From: Dasypus novemcinctus
Taxonomy: Eukaryota > Chordata > Mammalia > Cingulata > Dasypodidae
Direction: 5' to 3'
Length of the DNA: 64,000 bases
Assembly: GCF_030445035.2 (NCBI RefSeq)
Contig: NC_080694.1
Location: forward strand, 68,773,147 to 68,837,146
Below the pieces are notes generated by a model, which did not search any database, had not been told where the DNA came from, and saw only the letters and a list, made by a program, of their open reading frames with translations. Both the position numbers and the translations under genes were made by a program. Of the stretch, positions 9,845-51,823 are shown piece by piece. Each line of letters opens with the position of its first letter. Position 1 is the first letter of the stretch.

Positions 9845-9916
9845 TGGAGGTGCCGGGGATTGAACCCGGGGCCTCGTGCATGCTAAGCACGCGCTCTACC
9901 ACTGAGCTACACCCCC
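9845..9916 (-). tRNA. tRNA-Ala-AGC: tRNA-Ala (anticodon AGC)
   Basis: The 72-nt minus-strand sequence folds as a canonical tRNA. The acceptor stem is GGGGGTG/CACCTCC with one G-T pair, the D arm is TAGCTCAGTGG, and the anticodon stem-loop is CGTGC-TTAGCAT-GCACG. The B box is GGTTCAATCC and the discriminator base is A. No intron is present. A pol III terminator-like T run follows within 25 bases downstream on the minus strand. All stems are intact, so it is likely functional. It is not part of a SINE, because the DAS SINEs in this window have degenerated clover leaves and long bodies. Confidence 0.96.
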
Positions 9917-20472: not shown

Positions 20473-20554
20473 GCTGTGATGGCCGAGTGGTTAAGGCGTT
20501 GGACTTGAAATCCAATGGGGTTTTCCTGCGCAGGTTCGAATCCTGCTCACAGCG
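20473..20554 (+). tRNA. tRNA-Ser-TGA: tRNA-Ser (anticodon TGA)
   Basis: This is an 82-nt class II tRNA. The acceptor stem is GCTGTGA/TCACAGC, the D arm is GGCCGAGTGGTTAAGGC, and the anticodon loop is ACTTGAAAT with TGA. A long variable arm is present, and the B box is GGTTCGAATCC. The variable arm reads GGGGTTTTCCTGCG, slightly weakened relative to the usual GGGGT...CCCCGC. A TTTT terminator follows within 10 bases. It is probably functional. Confidence 0.95.
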
Positions 20555-25902: not shown

Positions 25903-27471
25903 TCAAGTGATTGGGCTCCTGTCTACCACATGGGAGGTCCAGAGTTCAATCCCCTGGGCCTCCTGGTGAAGGCAAGGTGGCCCGAGTGGAGAGCTGGCCC
26001 ATGCAGAGAGCTGGCCTATGCAGGAGTGCTGGCCCGGGCAGACAGCTGGTGCAGCAAGATGATGCAACAAAAAGAGACACAGAGGAGAGACAATAAGAGA
26101 TGCAGCAGACCAGGGAGCTGAGGTGGTGCAAGAGACTAACCTCGGGGGGCAAGATGGCGGCTGAGTGAACATCCCTGTTAGGGTCTTCTGCAGGGAATCG
26201 GCTGGGCGGCGTTGGAGACTCTTTGGGACCGGATTGTTTCGGGATTTTTGCTGGTCCGGAGGTGTCTGGACATCGATTTGGAGGGAAGGTAACAGAGAGG
26301 ATTCGTCTGTGAAATATACACGGAGATCCCAGCTACCTGCAGAGGATTCCCTTCTTGGGTAGGCGGAGACGAGGCATCTAGCCCCGCTCGGTGGGGCTGA
26401 GCCAGGCCGGGCCGGGCCGCGGTAGCGTTTGGAGCCGGGCGGGGCCGGTGCAGGCCCCCGCTGCGGGCCGCGGTAGCGCTTGGAGCCGGGCGGGGCCGGT
26501 GCAGGCCCCGGCTGCGGGCCGAGGTAGCGCTTGGAGCCGGGCGGGGCCGGTGCAGGCCCCGGCTGCGGGCCGCGGTAGCGCTTGGAGCCGGGCGGGGACG
26601 GTGCAGGCCCCGGCTGCGGGCCGCGGTAGCGCTTGGAGCCGGGCGGGGCCGGTGCAGGCCCCGGCTGCGGGCCGCGGTAGCGCTTGGAGCCGGGCGGGGC
26701 CGGTGCAGGCCCCCGCTGCCGGCCGCGGTAGCGCTTGGAGCCGGGCGGGGCCGGTGCAGGCCCCGGCTGCGGGCCGCGGTAGCGCTTGGAGCCGGGCGGG
26801 GCCGGTGCAGGCCCCCGCTGCGGGCCGCGGTAGCGCTTGGAGCCGGGCGGGGCCGGTGCAGGCCCCGGCTGCGGGCCGCGGTAGCGCTTGGAGCCGGGCG
26901 GGGCCGGTGCAGGCCCCGGCTGCGGGCCGCGGTAGCGCTTGGAGCCGGGCGGGGCCGGTGCAGGCCCCGGCTGCGGGCCGCGGTAGCGCTTGGAGCCGGG
27001 CGGGGCCGCTGCAGGCCCCGGCTGCGGGCCGCGGTAGCGCTTGGAGCCGGGCGGGGCCGGTTCAGGCCCCGGCTGCGGGCCGCGGTAGCGTTTGGAGCCG
27101 GGCGGGCCCGGGTCAGGCCGCGGCGGGTACGGAGCCGGGCAGGGCCGGTCCAGGCCGCGGTGGCGGGAGGTGGATGCCGGAGCCGGCTGGGCCGCTGTAG
27201 CGAGCGGAGCTGGGCGGAGCCAGGCCAGGCCAAGGCGGCGTGAGGAGCCGGGCAGAGCCGGTCCAAGCCTCCGCGGCGGGCGGAGCCGGGCCTGCGGAGG
27301 GGTTTCTGTTTTTTTTTGTTTTTTTTTTTTTTTGTTTGTTTGTTTGTTTTTTTTAATTTTACTTAAATTTTTTTTTTTTTTTTTTTTTTGAGCATCTGCA
27401 GTACTGGGGAGTTCGTGGGCCCTGGGCGGCCTATTGGGGGTTTGTGGGAAGGGAGGTGCTTGCAGACCCAT
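25903..27471 (-). other. Antisense 522-codon open frame crossing the L1 5' boundary (ORF0-like)
   Basis: An uninterrupted minus-strand frame begins with ATG at 27471 inside the L1 5' UTR. It traverses the monomer array as 17-residue repeats of the type GSKRYRGPQPGPAPAPP, crosses the L1 start at 26144 and ends in the flanking SINE at 25903. Primate L1 carries a short antisense ORF0 in the same place, also able to read into the flank. Here the openness may follow simply from the 51-bp period. The repeats are rich in Pro, Gly and Arg, and no domain is recognisable. A shorter 362-codon frame (26178-27266) overlaps it. Confidence 0.35.
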
Positions 27472-28397
27472 TTGGGCAGACAGACGGGGGGGTTTTAGGG
27501 CAAAGCGGGGGGAAGTTGTTGTTTTAGATAGTGTTGCAATTGTGACACGTGTGTACCTGTATCTCTCTTCTCCCTATCCGTTCCCCACCGTTTGCCCATC
27601 CTCTTTTTTTTTTCTTCCTTTCTTCTTGCCTTTCTTTTTTCTCTATTATAATTAGTTTGTTTTTTTTTTTTGTTTTGTTTTTTTTTCGGTTTTCTCTTTC
27701 CCTCTTGTCCCTCATCTTCCACTTATTTTTACCTTAATTCAAGTATACAATAGGTGCTACAGGGAACACCTCACATTTGCTGGGTTTTCCCATCCTCCAC
27801 TGCCTCATTTCTGTGTGAACTGATTTAGGCTACCTACACTATCCCCCTTCCCCTGCATCTTGATATCCACTATCATCTACTGTCTCTCCTATATTCCACC
27901 CCCCACCTCCCGTTCTTTGATCCACAAAGTGTCTAACTCTTAATTTCTAATACCTTTGTTCTGTTTTCTGTCTATTATCCACTCTTGAAACTATTACCTT
28001 TCTTTTCTTTTTCCCTCTCTCATGAAAACAATAGCTGTGTAGTTCACACCATATTCCTCCCAAATTCAGTCATCAACTTCATAAAAGGTACTCTACCTAC
28101 AGCTATAACTCTATACAATCTACATGAATCTAACCTCCATCCTTCCAGATCTCATATTCCTGCTTTATTAACATACATCACCAATACAACTTTACACTTT
28201 TCCCTTGCTTACACAATTGCCTTTCCCCAACACTAATACTTTCCTCTAAAGTGAACTTAACCAACAACAAGTAACTAGAATAAGAAGAAAAAAGTGACAA
28301 AGAGAAGATATAACACCTGTGCAAAAATAACAACTAATTAACCTCCAAGAGCAGACAAAGAAGCTAAGGAACTGATTAAATTCGTCAAAATAAAGAG
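26144..28397 (+). promoter_or_regulatory. L1 5' UTR / internal promoter
   Basis: It opens with a YY1-like CAAGATGGCGG (26150-26160), followed by about 260 bases of unique sequence. The 51-bp monomer array and diverged GC-rich monomers reach about 27298. Next come T-rich tracts (27303-27391, 27600-27690) and about 700 bases of C/T-rich leader before the ORF1 ATG. The GC boxes and YY1 motif suggest a bidirectional pol II promoter; that is inferred from other mammalian L1s. Confidence 0.85.
26421..27134 (+). repeat. 51-bp GC-box monomer array (14 copies) in the L1 5' UTR
   Basis: Units start with GGTAGCG at 26421, 26472, 26523 and so on every 51 bases to 27084. Each holds the Sp1-type GC box GGGCGGGGCC. 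Copies differ by only a few substitutions, and the last is diverged and grades into looser GC-rich repeats up to about 27298. Because 51 is a multiple of three, open frames pass through on both strands (17-residue repeats such as GSAWSRAGPVQAPAAGR on plus). Confidence 0.97.
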
Positions 28398-29366
28398 ATG
28401 ACCAGAAAGCAACAAAAATCTACGAACCAAACCAATAATCAGGAAAACATGGCTGAATCCAATCAACAAACCAATAATCACGAAGGGGAGCAAAACTTGG
28501 CACAAGCAATGAAAGATCTCAGAACATTTATCACTGACAAATTTGATGCAGTAATGAAAGAGGTTAACAACATGAAGACATCACTTGGAGGGGAAATTGC
28601 AGACATACGCAAAAACATAACAGATATGATGGGAATGAACACCACAGTTCAAGAAATCAAAAATACACTTGCAGCAAATATCAGCAGACTAGAAGAGACA
28701 GAGCAGAGAATTAGTGATGTGGAAGACAGTACATCAGAAATCAAACAGATAGTAGAAGGGGTCAATAAGAAGATAGAAAAAATCCAATTAGGATTTAGGG
28801 ACCTGAATGACAATGCAAAACGCTCAAACATACGTATTATAGGCATTCCAGAAGGTGAAGAGAAGGGAAAGGGGTCAGAAAGAGTGTTGCAGGAAATAAT
28901 GACTGAAAACTTCCCAAATCTACTGAAAGAGACAGATGTACATATCCAAGAAGCACAGCGCACTCCACAAGTCATAAACCCCAACAGGCCCACCCCAAGA
29001 CATATACTTGTCAAATTATCCAATGCTCAAGACAAAGAGAAGATCCTAAAAGCAGCAAGAGAAAAGAAAACCATCACATACAAGGGAAGCTCAATTAGAT
29101 TAAGTGCTGATTTCTCTTCTGAAACCATGGAGGCAAGAAGACAGTGGTATGATATAGTCAAGGTACTAAAGGAAAAAAATTTCCAACCAAGAATACTCTA
29201 CCCAGCTAAACTAGCATTCAAACATGATGGAGAGTTCAAAATATTCGCAGACAAACAGAAACTGAAAGAGTATACCAACAAGAAACCTCCCCTTCAAGAA
29301 ATTCTAAAGGGAGTTCTGCAGGAAGAAAGGAAAAAACAGGAAAGGCAAAGTTGGAGGAGAGTATAA
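28398..29366 (+). CDS. ORF1: L1 ORF1p, RNA-binding chaperone (322 aa)
   Basis: ORF1p trimerises, coats L1 RNA in the cytoplasmic RNP and acts as a nucleic-acid chaperone for target-primed reverse transcription. The N-terminal ~50 residues are polar (Gln/Asn-rich). A heptad-like coiled-coil follows (about 50-145, with [20 protein letters not shown]). The RRM begins near [18 protein letters not shown], and the C-terminal domain contains [20 protein letters not shown] and [18 protein letters not shown]. At 322 aa it is close to human ORF1p (338 aa). No stop or frameshift is seen. The ATG at 28398 is the first in frame, with AGAG just before it. It ends 74 bases before the ORF2 start. Confidence 0.97.
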
Positions 29367-29440
29367 GACCAACAACAACAACAAAAAAGACAAAAAAAAA
29401 TATACAAACAAAATATGACAAACACAAATCCAATCAAAAT

Positions 29441-32400
29441 ATGGCTAACACAAATAATTCCTTGATAGTAATAACACTGAATGTCAATGGATTAAACTCA
29501 CCTATCAAAAGATTCAGACTGGGACACTGGATAAGGAAATATGACCCATCCATATGCTGTCTACAAGAGACACATCTTAGACCCAGAGACGCATGGAGAT
29601 TGAAAGTGAAAGGCTGGAAAACAATCATACAAGCTAACAATAACCAAAAAAAGGCAGGAGTAGCTATATTAATATCAGACAAAATAGACTTTAAATGTGA
29701 AACAATTGTGAGAGACAAAGAAGGATACTACATTTTAGTCAAAGGGAAAATCTGTCAAGAAGATCGAACAATCATAAATATCTATGCCCCTAACAAGGGT
29801 GCCTCTAAATACGTCAGGCAAACGCTGGAAAAACTAAGTGAAAGAATAGATACATCTACAATTATAGTGGGGGATTTTAATACACCACTATCAATTCTGG
29901 ACAGAACATCTCAAAAGAGAATCACCAAAGACACAAAACATCTGAATAGTATATTAGAGGAGCTCGATCTAATAGACATATATAGATCGCTACACCCAAA
30001 CACAGCAGGATATACATTTTTCTCAAGCGCACATGGATCATTCTCCAAGATAGATCATATGCTAGGCCACAAAGAAAGGCTGAACGAATTCAGAAAGATT
30101 GAAATCATACAAAACATTATCTCTGACCACAGTGGAGTCAAGCTGGAGATTTGCAAGGGAAAGAAGCCCAGATTTCACACCACGATTTGGAAATTAAACA
30201 ACACACTCTTAGAAAAACAGTGGGTCAAAGAGGAAATCTCAAAAGAAATCAATGACTACCTTGAAACAAATGATAATGATAACACAACATACCAAAATTT
30301 ATGGGATGCAGCAAAAGCAGTACTGAGAGGGAAGTTTATAGCCATAAATTCATATATCAAAAAAGAAGAAAGAGCAAAAATTGAAGAACTAACTGCACAT
30401 TTGAAGGAATTAGAAAAACAACAACAAAGTAACCCAACAGGAAGAAGAAGGAAGGAAATAACAAAGATAAGAGCAGAACTAAATGAAATAGAAAATAAGA
30501 AAGCACTTGAACAGATAAACAAGACCAAGAGCTGGTTTTTTGAGAAGATTAACAAAATTGACAAACCTTTAGCAACACTAACAAAGAAAAAAAGAGAGAA
30601 GATGCAAATACACAAAATAAGAAATGAGAAAGGCGATATCACCACTGACCCCACAGAAATAAAGACTATCATAAGAGGATATTTTGAAAAACTATATTCC
30701 AACAAAAATGACAATCTAGAGGAAATGGACAAATTCCTAGAAACACATAAACAGCCCATATTGACAAAAGAAGAAATTGATGATCTTAACAAACCAATCA
30801 CAAGCAGAGAGATAGAATCAGTTATTAAAAATCTCCCAACTAAGAAGAGCCCAGGGCCAGATGGCTTCACAGGTGAATTCTATAAAACATTCCGGAAAGA
30901 ACTGACACCAATCCTGCTGAAACTATTCCAAACCATCGAAACAGAAAGAACATTACCCAACTCCTTCTATGATGCCAACATTACCCTAGTACCAAAGCCA
31001 AACAAAGACATCACAAGAAAGGAAAATTACAGACCAATTTCTCTAATGAACCTAGACGCAAAAATACTTAACAAAATACTTGCTAATCGTATTCAACAAC
31101 ACATTAAACGAATTATACACCACGACCAAGTGGGATTCATCCCAGGTATGCAAGGATGGTTCAACATAAGAAAATCAATCAACGTAATACACCATATAAA
31201 CAGATTGAAGGAAAAAAATCACATGATTATATCTATTGATGCAGAAAAAGCATTTGACAAAATACAGCACCCTTTCTTGATAAAAACATTCCAAATGATT
31301 GGAATACAAGGAAATTTTTTGAACATGATAAAGAGTATATATGAAAAACCTAAAGCCAATATTGTTTACAATGGAGAAATCCTAGACTCCTTCCCTCTAA
31401 ACTCAGGAACAAGACAAGGATGCCCACTGTCGCCGCTCCTATTTAACATTGTCTTAGAAGTACTTGCTCGAGCACTGAGGCAAGAACCAGAAATAAAAGG
31501 CATTCAAATTGGAAAGGAAGAAGTCAAAATTTCATTATTTGCAGATGACATGATCCTATACATAGAAAACCCTGAGAGATCTACAACGAAGATTCTAGAA
31601 CTCATAAATGAGTTTAGTAAAGTCGCAGGTTATAAGATCAATGCGCAAAAATCAGTAGCATTTCTGTACACCAATAATGAGCAAGATCAGGAGGAAATCA
31701 AGAAACAAATACCATTCACAATAGTAAATAAAAAAATCAAATACTTAGGAATAAATTTAACTAAAGAGGTAAAGAACTTATACACTGAGAACTATACAAG
31801 ATTGTTCAAGGAAATCAAAGAAGACCTAAATAAATGGAAGACTATTCCTTGTTCATGGATAGGAAGACTGAACATTATTAAGATGTCTATCCTACCAAAA
31901 TTGATCTACACATTCAATGCAATCCCAATAAAAATCAATGCAGCCTTCTTTAAGGAATTAGAAAAACTAACTATGAAATTTATTTGGAAAGGAAAGAGAC
32001 CCCGAATAGCCAAAGACATACTGAAAAAGAAAAACGAAATTGGAGGAATCACACTACCTGACTTCAAAACATACTATAAAGCTACGGTGGTGAAAACAGC
32101 ATGGTATTGGCATAAGGAGAGACATATAGACCAATGGAATCGAATTGAAAGCTCTGATATAGAACCTCACATATACAACCACATAATATTCGATAAAGCC
32201 ACCAAACCCTCTCAACTGGGAGAGAGTGGCCTATTCAACAAATGGTGTCTGGAGAACTGGATAGCCATATGTAGAAGAATGAAAGAGGATTACCATCTCA
32301 CACCTTATACAAAGATCAACTCAAGATGGATCAAAGACCTAAATATAAAAGCCAAGACCATAAAAACCTTAGAAAGCAGTGTAGGGAAACATCTACAGGA

Positions 32401-33259
32401 CCTTGTAATAGGTAATGGATTTATGAATATCTCACCAAAAGCACGAGCAGCAAAAGAACTAATAGATAAATGGGACTTCCTCAAAATTAAAGCCTTCTGC
32501 ACCTCAAAGGAGTTTGTCAAGAAAGTAAAAAGGGAGCCCACACAGTGGGAGAAAATATTTGGCAATCATATATCTGATAAGAAACTTATAACTTGCATAT
32601 ATAAAGAACTCCTACATCTTGAAAATAAAAAGATAAACAATCCATTTAAAAAATGGGAAAAAGACTTAAACAGACACTTCTCCGAAGAAGAAATACAAAT
32701 GGCAAGAAAGCACATGAAAAAATGTTCCAAATCTCTAGCTATCAGGGAAATGCAAATCAAAACCACAATGAGATACCATCTTACACCCATAAGATTGGCA
32801 GCTATGAAAAAAACAGAAGAATACAAGTGCTGGAGAGGATGTGAAGGAAGGGGAACACTCATCCACTGCTGGTGGGAATGCAGAAGGATCCAACCATTCT
32901 GGAGAACAGTATGGCGGTTTCTCAAAAAACTAGCCATAGATTTGCCATATGACCCAGCAATACCACTGCTGGGAATATACCCAGCAGAACTGAAAACAAG
33001 AACACAAACCAATATATGTACACCAATGTTCATAGCAGCATTGTTCACTATTGCCAAAAGTTGGAATCAACCCAAATGCCCATCAACAGACGAGTGGATC
33101 AATAAAATGTGGTATATACACACAATGGAATACTACTCGGCTGTAAGAACAAACACACTACAAACACATGTGATAACATGGATGAATCTTGAGAACCTTA
33201 TGTTGAGTGAAGCAACCCAGACATTGAAGGACAAATACTACATGACCTCAATGATATGA
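29441..33259 (+). CDS. ORF2: L1 ORF2p, endonuclease and reverse transcriptase (1272 aa)
   Basis: ORF2p nicks genomic DNA and reverse transcribes L1 RNA at the nick. I place the start at 29441 ([19 protein letters not shown]) because that aligns with the usual ORF2 start. The frame is open further upstream to 29351, overlapping the end of ORF1. The apurinic-type endonuclease keeps N14, E43, D145, N147, D205, D229 and H230. The RT keeps D600 ([10 protein letters not shown]) and the FADD box with D702/D703. The Cys-rich C-terminus keeps C1130, C1134, H1142 and C1147 ([18 protein letters not shown]). Length and numbering match human ORF2p (1275 aa) almost exactly, with no disruption. Translation presumably follows termination-reinitiation after ORF1, as known for L1. 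Confidence 0.97.
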
Positions 33260-35916
33260 AATAAACAAGCTGCCCTAGATAGCAAGAGACTGAACGATAG
33301 GCTTGCAGGAAATCGGAGGGTGGAGGAAGGATATGAGCCGATGTCTGCAGGGGTGGAATTTAAGACGAGATGGTGGTAAGTATGAACACAAAGAAGAGAT
33401 AAAAGGGGGGCAAGGGGTTGCCTTTGCTTGGGGCTTTGCGGGTTTGAGGGTGGCTGGGGAGGGACGGGTGGGTAACGTTGCCCAAAAGTGGGGGGAGGGA
33501 GGGGTAGCATACGAACCAGGAGAGGGTCAGGTGTTGGTGGAGAGTAAAATGCCGAGAAAATCATATCAAAATATAATAAAGAGGGTTACCTGTTTAGAAT
33601 GCTCGGAGGGGAGGGTCTGATGCAGGACGGGCTCCTGGGTAATGTCTAAATGCTCATTCTGCCAGAGTGGGTGACACCATGGGGTAGAAACCCAAGTAGT
33701 GAGAGTGGGGGTGGACCCACATCCTGGGGAGGACTAATGCCATCCAATAGAGGGAAATGTATCCCTCGAGAGAAAGGGTGGCTCCCAGGGCATTGGGGCA
33801 GTTGAGCAAGTTAGGCCCTGAACACTATTCCATCTATCTCTGGAAGTGGCTCCTCAGGAAACGGAGGTTGGCTATCACTGAGGGCACTAAGGTGGAAGGG
33901 AAAATGGACGTTAAATGTGTGGAACCAAAGTAAATGGGGGGTAAGAGAGGAGTTTCTTGAGAGTACACAAGGATGGATATAAAACATGTAATATTACACC
34001 ATAACATATAGGAGATGACAGACTGATAATGTAAACCATAATGTAAAACATAGGATAACTAAAAATGTAAAGAACTGTGTATCCTAAAGTATGCACCATA
34101 ATGTAAATACAGATGTCACCTTGTTAGAAAGCTAATGTCTCAGACTCTGTACATCACTTTAAGTAAATATGATATGAATAGGGCGTAAGAGTATCACTGT
34201 GGAAGGGAAAAGGTTTTCTGGTGGATGTGTGGGAGTGCTGTATATTATATATATACATTGCTGTGGTCTAGGACTCCTGTGAAGAAAAGCTGAATAATTA
34301 GGGGGGGGGGGAAAAAAAATAGGATGTGGAAATTTTTTCAAGTCAACATTCTTTATCTAAGTTCTTTATCTAACTTTATCCAAGTTCTTTATCTATCCTT
34401 TAAACTCATCGCTATATGCCATTCCCTAGTAAGGGACCATGACATTATATTGGGCTTCAAATTTCAGGGAGTTCTGGATCACAGAGTGTTTCAACAATGG
34501 CAATGGAGGGATACTGGTATGGGATACCAATGACAGATGATATATGACTGACAGGGAGCTGTACAGAACATATGTCCAGGGTGCATGGTAATGTTTGGAT
34601 ATACTCATAGTGGCAACAATTAAAAACCACAGTAGGGGGGGTACTGGGTTCCCGGCCAGTGGTGCTCTGTCGTGGTCCCTAGGGGAGCAGCGACAGTCTC
34701 CCAGGTACAGTGGTGGGGACCGGGAGGGAGTGAGGGTTCAACAGTGAGCCCCTGATACTAATGACTATGCTTGTGAGCTGATAAACCCAAAATAATAACA
34801 AGGCCTAGAGCAACTTTGTGCCTGGGAATTTCCTTCTGTCAGCCTTCATGTTATTCAAATGTGGCCAGTCTCGAAGCCAAACTCAGCATGTAAATGCAAT
34901 GCCTTCCCCCCAGCGTGGGACATGACACCCGGGGATGAGCCTCCCTGGCAACGAGGGACCACTATCAACTACCAACTGATGATGCAACTGGAAAATGACC
35001 TTATACGGAAGGTTCAATGCGGATCAGCAGAATATCCATGTCTACATAAAATACCATGACTTTAAAATGCTGTTTGACCTAAAGTAAGGGGGAAATGGAA
35101 AGGAGAAATGAGTTTATATGGCTACGAGTTTCTAAAAAAGAGTCTGGAGGCTGGCAGAAGGTTTGCCCTCATGCACAACTGAGCAGAGTCAGAGAGACAG
35201 ATAAAGCAGATACAACCCCCAGATATTGGTTCCTTTGAGGGCTAAAGAGACCCATGGGAGTTATGGTCATGGCCGATGGGGTTAACTACCAGGGCAGATG
35301 GCCCCTCTTTGGAAATGGTGTTTATGTGTGATGAATCTGGACTCAGATGGGATCTCCCTTCATAAGACTTTCATGCTAATGTGCTGGAGGTGCAGTTAAT
35401 GTTGGGGTTTAAGATATATTTAGGGGATTTGAATCTCTGGACTGACAATGTGATAGCCAGATCCTGAGCCTCAACAGACTCCAGCACCTACAATCTGATT
35501 TATTGGACTTACCACACTCAGCTAAGATGGAGGTGAAGGACAACCACCACACCATGGAGCCTAGAGTGATTACAACTGAAAATGGGAGGATTGCATCCAG
35601 CATCCAGGTGGAATCTGAGCCTCCTCTTGACATAAAGGTGCAATGGACACAACCAATCCAGTGTCCACATAGAAGAGGTGGCATTGGATTGGGAAAAGTG
35701 GACATAATGGACAAAGGGTATGGGGAAAGGCAGGAAGAGATGAGAGGTGGAGGCGTCTTCGGGACATGGAGCTGCCCTGGATGGTGCTTCAGAGGTAATC
35801 ACCGGACATTGTAAATCCTCACAGGGCCTACATGATAAATAGAGGAGAGTATGGGCCATGATGTGAACCAATGTATATGAGGTGCAGAGGTGCCCAAAGA
35901 TGTACTTACCAAATCC
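33260..35916 (+). other. Unusually long L1 3' UTR (2.66 kb)
   Basis: It holds G-rich tracts at 33400-33500 and a polypurine run at about 34300-34318 (poly-G followed by poly-A). The distal 1.3 kb matches the older L1 3' ends at 2781-4441 and 38456-39432. It stops at ACCAAATCC followed by poly(A), about 180 bases before the ancestral end seen in those copies, and without a nearby AATAAA. No open frame of note. Confidence 0.85.
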
Positions 35917-36774
35917 AAAAAAAAAAAAAAAAAAAAAGAGACTAACCTCCTCTCTCCCACTCTGGAAGGTCCCACGATCGGTTCCTGGTGCCACCTAAAG
36001 GGAAGACAAGTAGACACAGAAGAATACATAGGGAATGGACACAGAGAGCAAACAGCGAGCACAAAAACAGCAAGGGGTGGGAGGGGAGATAAATAAATCT
36101 TTTTTAAAAACACACACGGGAGGCCTAGATCTTCAACCCAACAACCTATCTCCTTAGCTGTTTAGGCCTACAGGGCTATCAGCACCAAATCACAGGGCTA
36201 TCGGCACCAGGTCTCCAAGTCAACACGGCCCTGGACCGCACCCGTTTACTCACTTTTTGTCAACACTAGAGTATAAATGAATTGAATAACCTACCTTATT
36301 TCCGGTCTTAAGGCAACCTTGCCCTTTCTGCAGCGCGTTCTTTGATGCTTCCAAACCTTTACTGCCTCCCTCCTGCATCCACTGTCCAGCCTCCTGTCCA
36401 GCCTCCTTTTCTGAGCCCCTCTCGGAATGCACCATCTGCACATGCTCTCTCCACCTTGCTGTTATCCATATGGGATGCGGCATCAGCTTCCAGCTTAAAG
36501 CCTTCCTCCCCATCACATTCCTCAAAGTCATTGATGAAAGACTTCACATGAATGAGCCATCTAACTGCCCATCCTCTAACTCTTCCTGACACCCAGGTAT
36601 TAGTTTTTGCAATTTTCAGAGAGTGCTGTAAATAATTGTCAAGTGTTAATGAATCTTAATCTCAAACGAAGAACTCTTCGTTTAACTGGATCTTTGGGAC
36701 TAGTGATAGAAGACCCACGAACCCTCCTTGTTAGATTGCTTTTGTATTTCATGTGGCTACCCACAGGCCCTCAG

Positions 36775-51010: not shown

Positions 51011-51823
51011 TAGGAAGCAGATGTGGCTCAAGCAATCGGGCTCCTGTCTACAATATGGGAGGTCCAGGGTTCGATGCCCAGGGCCTCCTGGTGAAGGGAA
51101 GCTGGCCGATGAGGAGAGTTGGCCCACATGAAGTGCTGGCCTTTGCAGAGTGCTGGCCTGCACAGGAGTGCTGGTCCACATGGAGAGCTAGCACAGCATG
51201 TGCAACAAAAAGAGACACAGAAGAGAGACAATAAGAGACATACCAGATCAGGGAGCTGAGGTGGCGCAAGAGAACGATCACCTCTCTCCCACTCCAGAAG
51301 GTCCCAGGATGGGTTCCTGGAGCTGCCTAATGAGAATACAAGCAGACACAGAAGAACACACAGCAAACGGACACAGAAAGCAGACAATGGGGGGGGGGGT
51401 GTGATAAATAAAATAAATTGTGGGAAAGAGTTTAAAGTATATTTGAACTTTGTATGACCTGTTCCTTATTGTAGATGTTGCAGTTGTTCCCTATTATTGT
51501 AGATGATGTTGCAGTTCTCATAGCAAAGAGCTGCTCAGTAGTTTCCAATAAATACAATATGGAAACTAGGGGCAAGACTCTCAGTTCCAGAAGCCGTGAG
51601 TCCCCTGGTCCCATCTTTATCTCTTCTCTGATGTCTTTCTCTCTGTCCTTTTATTTCGTAAAGCTCTGTGTTGCCTTCCCTTTGAGCCAACCCATCGCTG
51701 AACTGATCTCAGCAACTGGCACCCAACTTGGGGCCCGAAGGGAAGCTCAGCAACTAGCGCCAGAACACGGACTCAAAGGGAAGAAGGCTCCCAGCAATAA
51801 ATCTTTTAAATAAATAAATAAAT
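51011..51823 (+). repeat. DAS SINE, itself split by an LTR
   Basis: The head is GGAAGCAGATGTGGCTCAAG and the B-box region GGGTTCGATGCCC. The body is collinear with the SINE at 25886/35950. The tail is split at 51418/51797 by the LTR. Target repeats ATGAATAA occur at 51003-51010 and 51824-51831. Confidence 0.85.
51419..51796 (+). repeat. Class II (ERVK-like) LTR-containing insertion in the SINE tail
   Basis: The insertion has TG...CA ends and a perfect 6-bp duplication ATAAAT (51413-51418, 51797-51802), typical of class II elements. CAATAAATAC (51549) fits the polyadenylation signal. A tRNA-Lys-like primer site, TGGCACCCAACTTGGGGC, lies at about 51717. The piece therefore reaches slightly beyond a normal LTR but has no genes. 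It is a fossil, younger than the SINE it sits in. Confidence 0.65.

Follow-up and report, generated by a model that had tools for sequence, protein, structure and literature searches.

Human L1 (L1HS type) has two ORFs and a YY1-type core at its 5' tip, and the L1 described here has both. The human 5'UTR is given as about 910 bp (PMC2894050). In the mouse, the A, Tf and Gf L1s are described as carrying a variable number of tandem 5' units and, after them, a tether that is not repeated (PMC9022269). The longest mouse arrays are given as 12, 15 and 17 units by subfamily (PMC2894050), and the mouse is said to hold the most L1 units among vertebrates (PMC9022269). Further monomer-bearing L1s are listed from rat, hyrax, horse, elephant and opossum (PMC9022269, after Boissinot and Sookdeo 2016), a list on which Xenarthra do not appear. 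In xenarthrans, full-length and young L1s are reported in their thousands, most of them species-specific (PMC13251070), and an intact young L1 is thus to be expected in them; the term "UTR" is not found in the main text of that source. L1 activity in the sloth was predicted from U6 copies to be very low or lost (PMC4476161), using an assembly that PMC13251070 calls poor, and this prediction has no bearing on the armadillo. Among the literature matches listed, we found no description of a xenarthran L1 5'UTR array at the level of titles and abstract starts.

The first-pass annotation of a 64-kb stretch of DNA (hereafter, the window) had placed an intact L1 at 26144-35935, with a perfect 14-bp duplication, a clean poly(A), open ORF1 and ORF2, and the endonuclease, reverse transcriptase and Cys-rich residues in place. 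Examination of the target-site duplication (TSD), ORFs, domains and residues confirmed that this is a genuine L1 insertion, with all features on the plus strand unless noted. The TSD, AAGAGACTAACCTC, has two exact occurrences in the window, one at each end of the element (26130-26143 and 35936-35949), and was absent from 100 shuffles; together with 19 A at 35917-35935, it gives the copy the end structure of the L1 clade. ORF1 (28398-29366, 322 aa) is open and has the RRM-like and C-terminal domains of L1 (Pfam PF02994, E 7e-28; PF17490, E 1.3e-22), with residues 94-314 aligning to human ORF1p (2yko). ORF2 (29441-33259, 1272 aa) is also open, is colinear over residues 2-1272 with residues 2-1272 of human ORF2p (8uw3), and contains the AP-type endonuclease (PF03372), reverse transcriptase (PF00078) and C-terminal Cys-rich motif typical of the clade; 14 of 14 residues lie at the positions that had been proposed for them. 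Among the best 120 protein matches of each search, none was near; the closest full-length ones were 55% identical for ORF1 and 66% for ORF2 (donkey), and a partial ORF2 match reached 75% over 69%.

The L1 sits inside an older tRNA-derived SINE. Joining the flanks at the TSD gives a 494-bp empty site, of which bases 38-398 aligned across the junction (base 293) to a SINE at 51013-51386 with 79% identity. Taken together, the data show a recent target-primed insertion into an older SINE. The flanking SINE is one that we take to be DAS-type, and the label "xenarthran" rests on it. An Rfam search of the window returned only two tRNAs, both well-formed at 69 bits, namely tRNA Ala (AGC) at 9845-9916 on the minus strand and tRNA Ser (TGA) at 20473-20554 on the plus strand, with no match in the L1. 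Two features absent from the first-pass annotation alter its reading of the element: a 14-unit tandem array (51 bp per unit) at 26413-27124, and the loss of a 3' terminal segment.

The 5'UTR opens with a unique tip (26144-26412, the first 269 nt), and the proposed 5' end with a YY1-type core is indeed kept, with AAGATGGCGGC beginning at 26151. The array follows, its units 97% alike and 84% GC, and accounts for roughly one third of this long 5'UTR. Directly 3' of it lies a tether of 1.27 kb (27125-28397; i.e., the non-repeated remainder of the 5'UTR), which has a T-rich stretch at 27309-27389 and is 95-99.6% identical in ten sibling copies. The units show GC-box-like motifs and CpG content. All 14 units have GGGCGG and 12 of them have GGGCGGGGCC; this 10-mer, which was picked after the unit had been seen, occurred in 1.6% of shuffled units. 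The 51-bp unit does not match the strict Sp1 pattern KGGGCGGRRY. Across 189 units from 11 copies, 9 of 1512 CpG sites had turned into TpG or CpA, which fits youth, low methylation or array homogenisation. The YY1-type start at the tip and the GC-rich array are a putative promoter that probably drives the family. On the minus strand, a frame of 522 aa with 17-aa repeats (25903-27471) spans the array. We rejected an antisense protein resembling primate ORF0, with 5 of 6 unit frames open compared with 5.45 of 6 in shuffles; the frame stays open because of base composition and because the 51-bp unit is a multiple of three.

A monomer query against the genome that holds the window (3.61 Gb in 546 contigs) yielded 204 matches (40 of 222 candidates scored) and at least 38 distinct monomer-array places, window included, among the matches listed. 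Contig C47 holds 6 of the 38 listed places on about 5% of the genome. Ten of the other 37 listed places were taken as siblings, and because they were chosen as the top monomer matches, this sample leans young. All ten share the element plan. Their identity to the window copy is 99.76-99.97% in ORF2 and 99.0-99.7% in the 3'UTR, and such near-identical copies support its membership of a recently active family. Sibling arrays contain 7.0, 12.9, 17.0, 18.0, 18.0, 19.0, 19.9, 20.0, 25.0 and 28.5 units, compared with 14.0 in the window copy. Because the ten siblings hold this range of units, the 5'UTR is monomer-type (i.e., tandem 5' units in a number that differs among copies, followed by a tether). 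Units at the two ends of the array are usually alike among copies and those in the middle differ, even relative to the nearest sibling (C47_26.9, with 17 units and 3 ORF differences in 4788 sites). Seven siblings match the 5' tip from nt 2 and one from nt 8, and the remaining two start only at its nt 98 and 192. A script detected TSDs in the window copy and in nine siblings, and visual inspection supplied that of the tenth. The null for this script, which made no demand for position beside element ends, was not clean, with matches of at least 10 nt in 25 of 300 random pairs. Six of the ten siblings have both ORFs open, and the other four have stops or frame shifts. The siblings measure 9.4-10.5 kb to the equivalent 3' point and then continue, so the description of the window copy as unusually large is not supported within its own family. 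Similarly, its UTRs, which had been called long, exceed those of human L1 and are ordinary for the family; human L1 also lacks the tandem 51-bp units.

The monomer-plus-tether plan is shared with mouse L1 as described, with units of 51 bp in place of about 200 bp, and the family's arrays of up to 28.5 units exceed the reported mouse maximum of 17 in number but not in length. In contrast to mouse L1, the YY1-type core lies in the unique tip and not in the units. The tandem 5' units of rat, hyrax, horse, elephant and opossum L1s are likened to these by description, not by unit sequence. By these accounts, a monomer-type 5'UTR was already known in several mammals, and the window family is a further case with much shorter units. 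DasNov-3.204, TT_rnd-1_family-88 and ChoHof-6.463 are described as young and species-specific with thousands of full-length copies (PMC13251070), much like the window family, which, compared by description only, is possibly one of them.

Comparison with the ten siblings over 8687 sites left the window copy with 4 private substitutions, in agreement with its being called very young. At an assumed 2.2e-9 substitutions per site and year, this corresponds to about 0.2 My, with an upper 95% limit of about 0.5 My; open ORFs alone permit an age of up to about 2.4 My. Mean pairwise differences among the 11 copies are 0.18% in the ORFs, 0.40% in the 3'UTR and 0.64% in the tether. ORF variants shared among these copies comprise 5 synonymous and 0 nonsynonymous changes, and on this basis copies that leave offspring look selected for working proteins; private variants comprise 14 synonymous and 18 nonsynonymous changes and 3 stops (neutral expectation 2.67 nonsynonymous to 1, gapped codons excluded). 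Purifying selection and youth would be indirect signs of retrotransposition activity.

The 3'UTR (33260-35916) lacks the end of its siblings. In the window copy, CCAAATCC runs directly into A19 and then the TSD, whereas 10 of 10 fetched siblings go on with (A)ATGGATGTGTC, a long G-tract, AATAAA at +119 to +122 and then poly(A). The window copy is therefore not a complete copy of its own family, and because it ends about 120 nt early it lacks the family's usual end signal. None of 13 poly(A) hexamers searched for lies within 60 nt upstream of its short end. An older L1 at 2830-3916 matches 34595-35669 over 1.1 kb at 70%, and 10 of 10 siblings have this sequence, so a chimaeric or recently inserted 3'UTR was rejected.

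Exact matches to the short junction (18 nt plus A12) number 37 in the genome, window included, compared with 17,805 for the continuing 30-mer. One control junction 9 nt upstream gave 0 exact places, and reversed-pattern controls for the junction counts gave 0 in each case. Inspection of all 36 other short-junction loci revealed 27 distinct flanks, or 28 with the window. Nine loci have one 3' flank in common, which indicates one insertion duplicated with its surroundings (L049, L057, L058, L059 and L063-L067, on contigs C32, C46, C60, C62 and C545), and L039 and L040 share another, with 21 nt of L1 before the A run. That pair excepted, a comparison of up to 500 nt at the 3' end places the short-ended copies at 90-99% identity to the window copy. 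In a tree of tails (n = 34; 15 of 36 loci were dropped, namely eight of the nine duplicates, L039, L040 and five whose matches were short), the short-ended copies are scattered from one end of the ladder to the other, the young ones among full-ended siblings; L053 is an artefact in this tree because its stretch includes non-L1 flank. These data demonstrate that the short end is a rare but recurrent alternative end common to several copies. A second copy that combines the L1 5' tip with the short 3' end is L060, with L069; its ORF2 is shortened. L039 and L040 (about 1290-1760) have ~190 nt of flank in common after the L1 poly(A), including a 21-nt piece of L1 end that has an A run of its own, and L039 has a new A run where L040 continues. 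L039 thus looks like a 3' transduction offspring of L040, a possible precedent in the same genome.

We consider it probable that the window copy is a recent insertion of an active tandem-unit L1 family, made from an RNA that was polyadenylated early, at a proximal site used rarely but repeatedly. The L1 RNA would have received its poly(A) tail directly behind CCAAATCC(A), after being cut some 120 nt short of AATAAA. Cleavage would follow CA and be helped by the GU-rich stretch that lies just downstream in continuing copies, and the early-polyadenylated RNA would then enter the tRNA-derived SINE by the target-primed route. We infer premature polyadenylation, like promoter function, from sequence features. 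No AATAAA lies close upstream of the proximal site, and an end whose final 60 nt hold none of the 13 hexamers is unusual and counts against polyadenylation there. The same lack of AATAAA near the short end speaks for internal priming (i.e., reverse transcription started inside the 3'UTR, with the A run made by slippage), and continuing copies do have two A at this point. Slippage would, however, have to make A19 from two templated A, and in 28 flanks it would have had to do so at one and the same base, with no cases for the junction 9 nt upstream; we regard internal priming as quite improbable. The identical end nucleotide in 28 distinct flanks could instead reflect one sublineage whose master lost the terminal segment and transmits the short end, and L060, one of three short-ended loci read further upstream, does keep its L1 5' end. 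Short-ended copies do not form one clade, however. At 90-99% identity to the window copy they are dispersed along the tree, the young ones among full-ended siblings in a tree whose full-ended copies were young, and a single sublineage is thus unlikely. An assembly artefact at the 3' end is scarcely credible: young repeats are difficult to assemble, but the second TSD directly follows the poly(A) and the same end is present elsewhere in the genome.

The short 3' end bears on whether the window copy is, as the first-pass annotation suggested, a source L1 that may still move. Intact ORFs, youth and membership of an active family stand in favour of that suggestion, and its source role is weakened because the G-tract and AATAAA of 10 of 10 fetched siblings are absent. 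The missing segment might nonetheless be immaterial and the copy a fully competent source, with open ORFs, an intact 5' tip and array, and a flanking signal that L1 transcripts could use, much as L039 appears to be an offspring of L040 that carries flank. The start of the terminal segment is, however, kept in all ten fetched siblings and in 17,805 exact copies, and we view full competence as rather unlikely. The copy is coding-intact and as a source would need a poly(A) signal from the flank, the candidate being AATAAA in the flanking SINE (36092-36097), the sole AATAAA or ATTAAA within 400 nt past the 3'UTR. Its transcript would probably end in that SINE and carry the SINE along. The interpretation of the first-pass annotation thus stands for the intact ORFs, the youth and the recently active family, and not for the unusual size.

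More tentatively, these observations may describe a xenarthran L1 lineage with its own short-unit tandem promoter, which would change in length in nearly every burst, and with two 3' ends, a main one that has the G-tract and AATAAA, and a proximal one that is rare and free of AATAAA. Copies with the proximal end would borrow poly(A) signals where they land and, since they must do so, would be prone to carry flanking DNA. If the host is xenarthran, it would represent a fourth placental superorder among mammals with a tandem-unit L1 5'UTR. Because the copies are nearly identical save for unit number, the effect of unit number on activity is directly testable, and the recurrent short end would provide a natural test of L1 3'UTR requirements.
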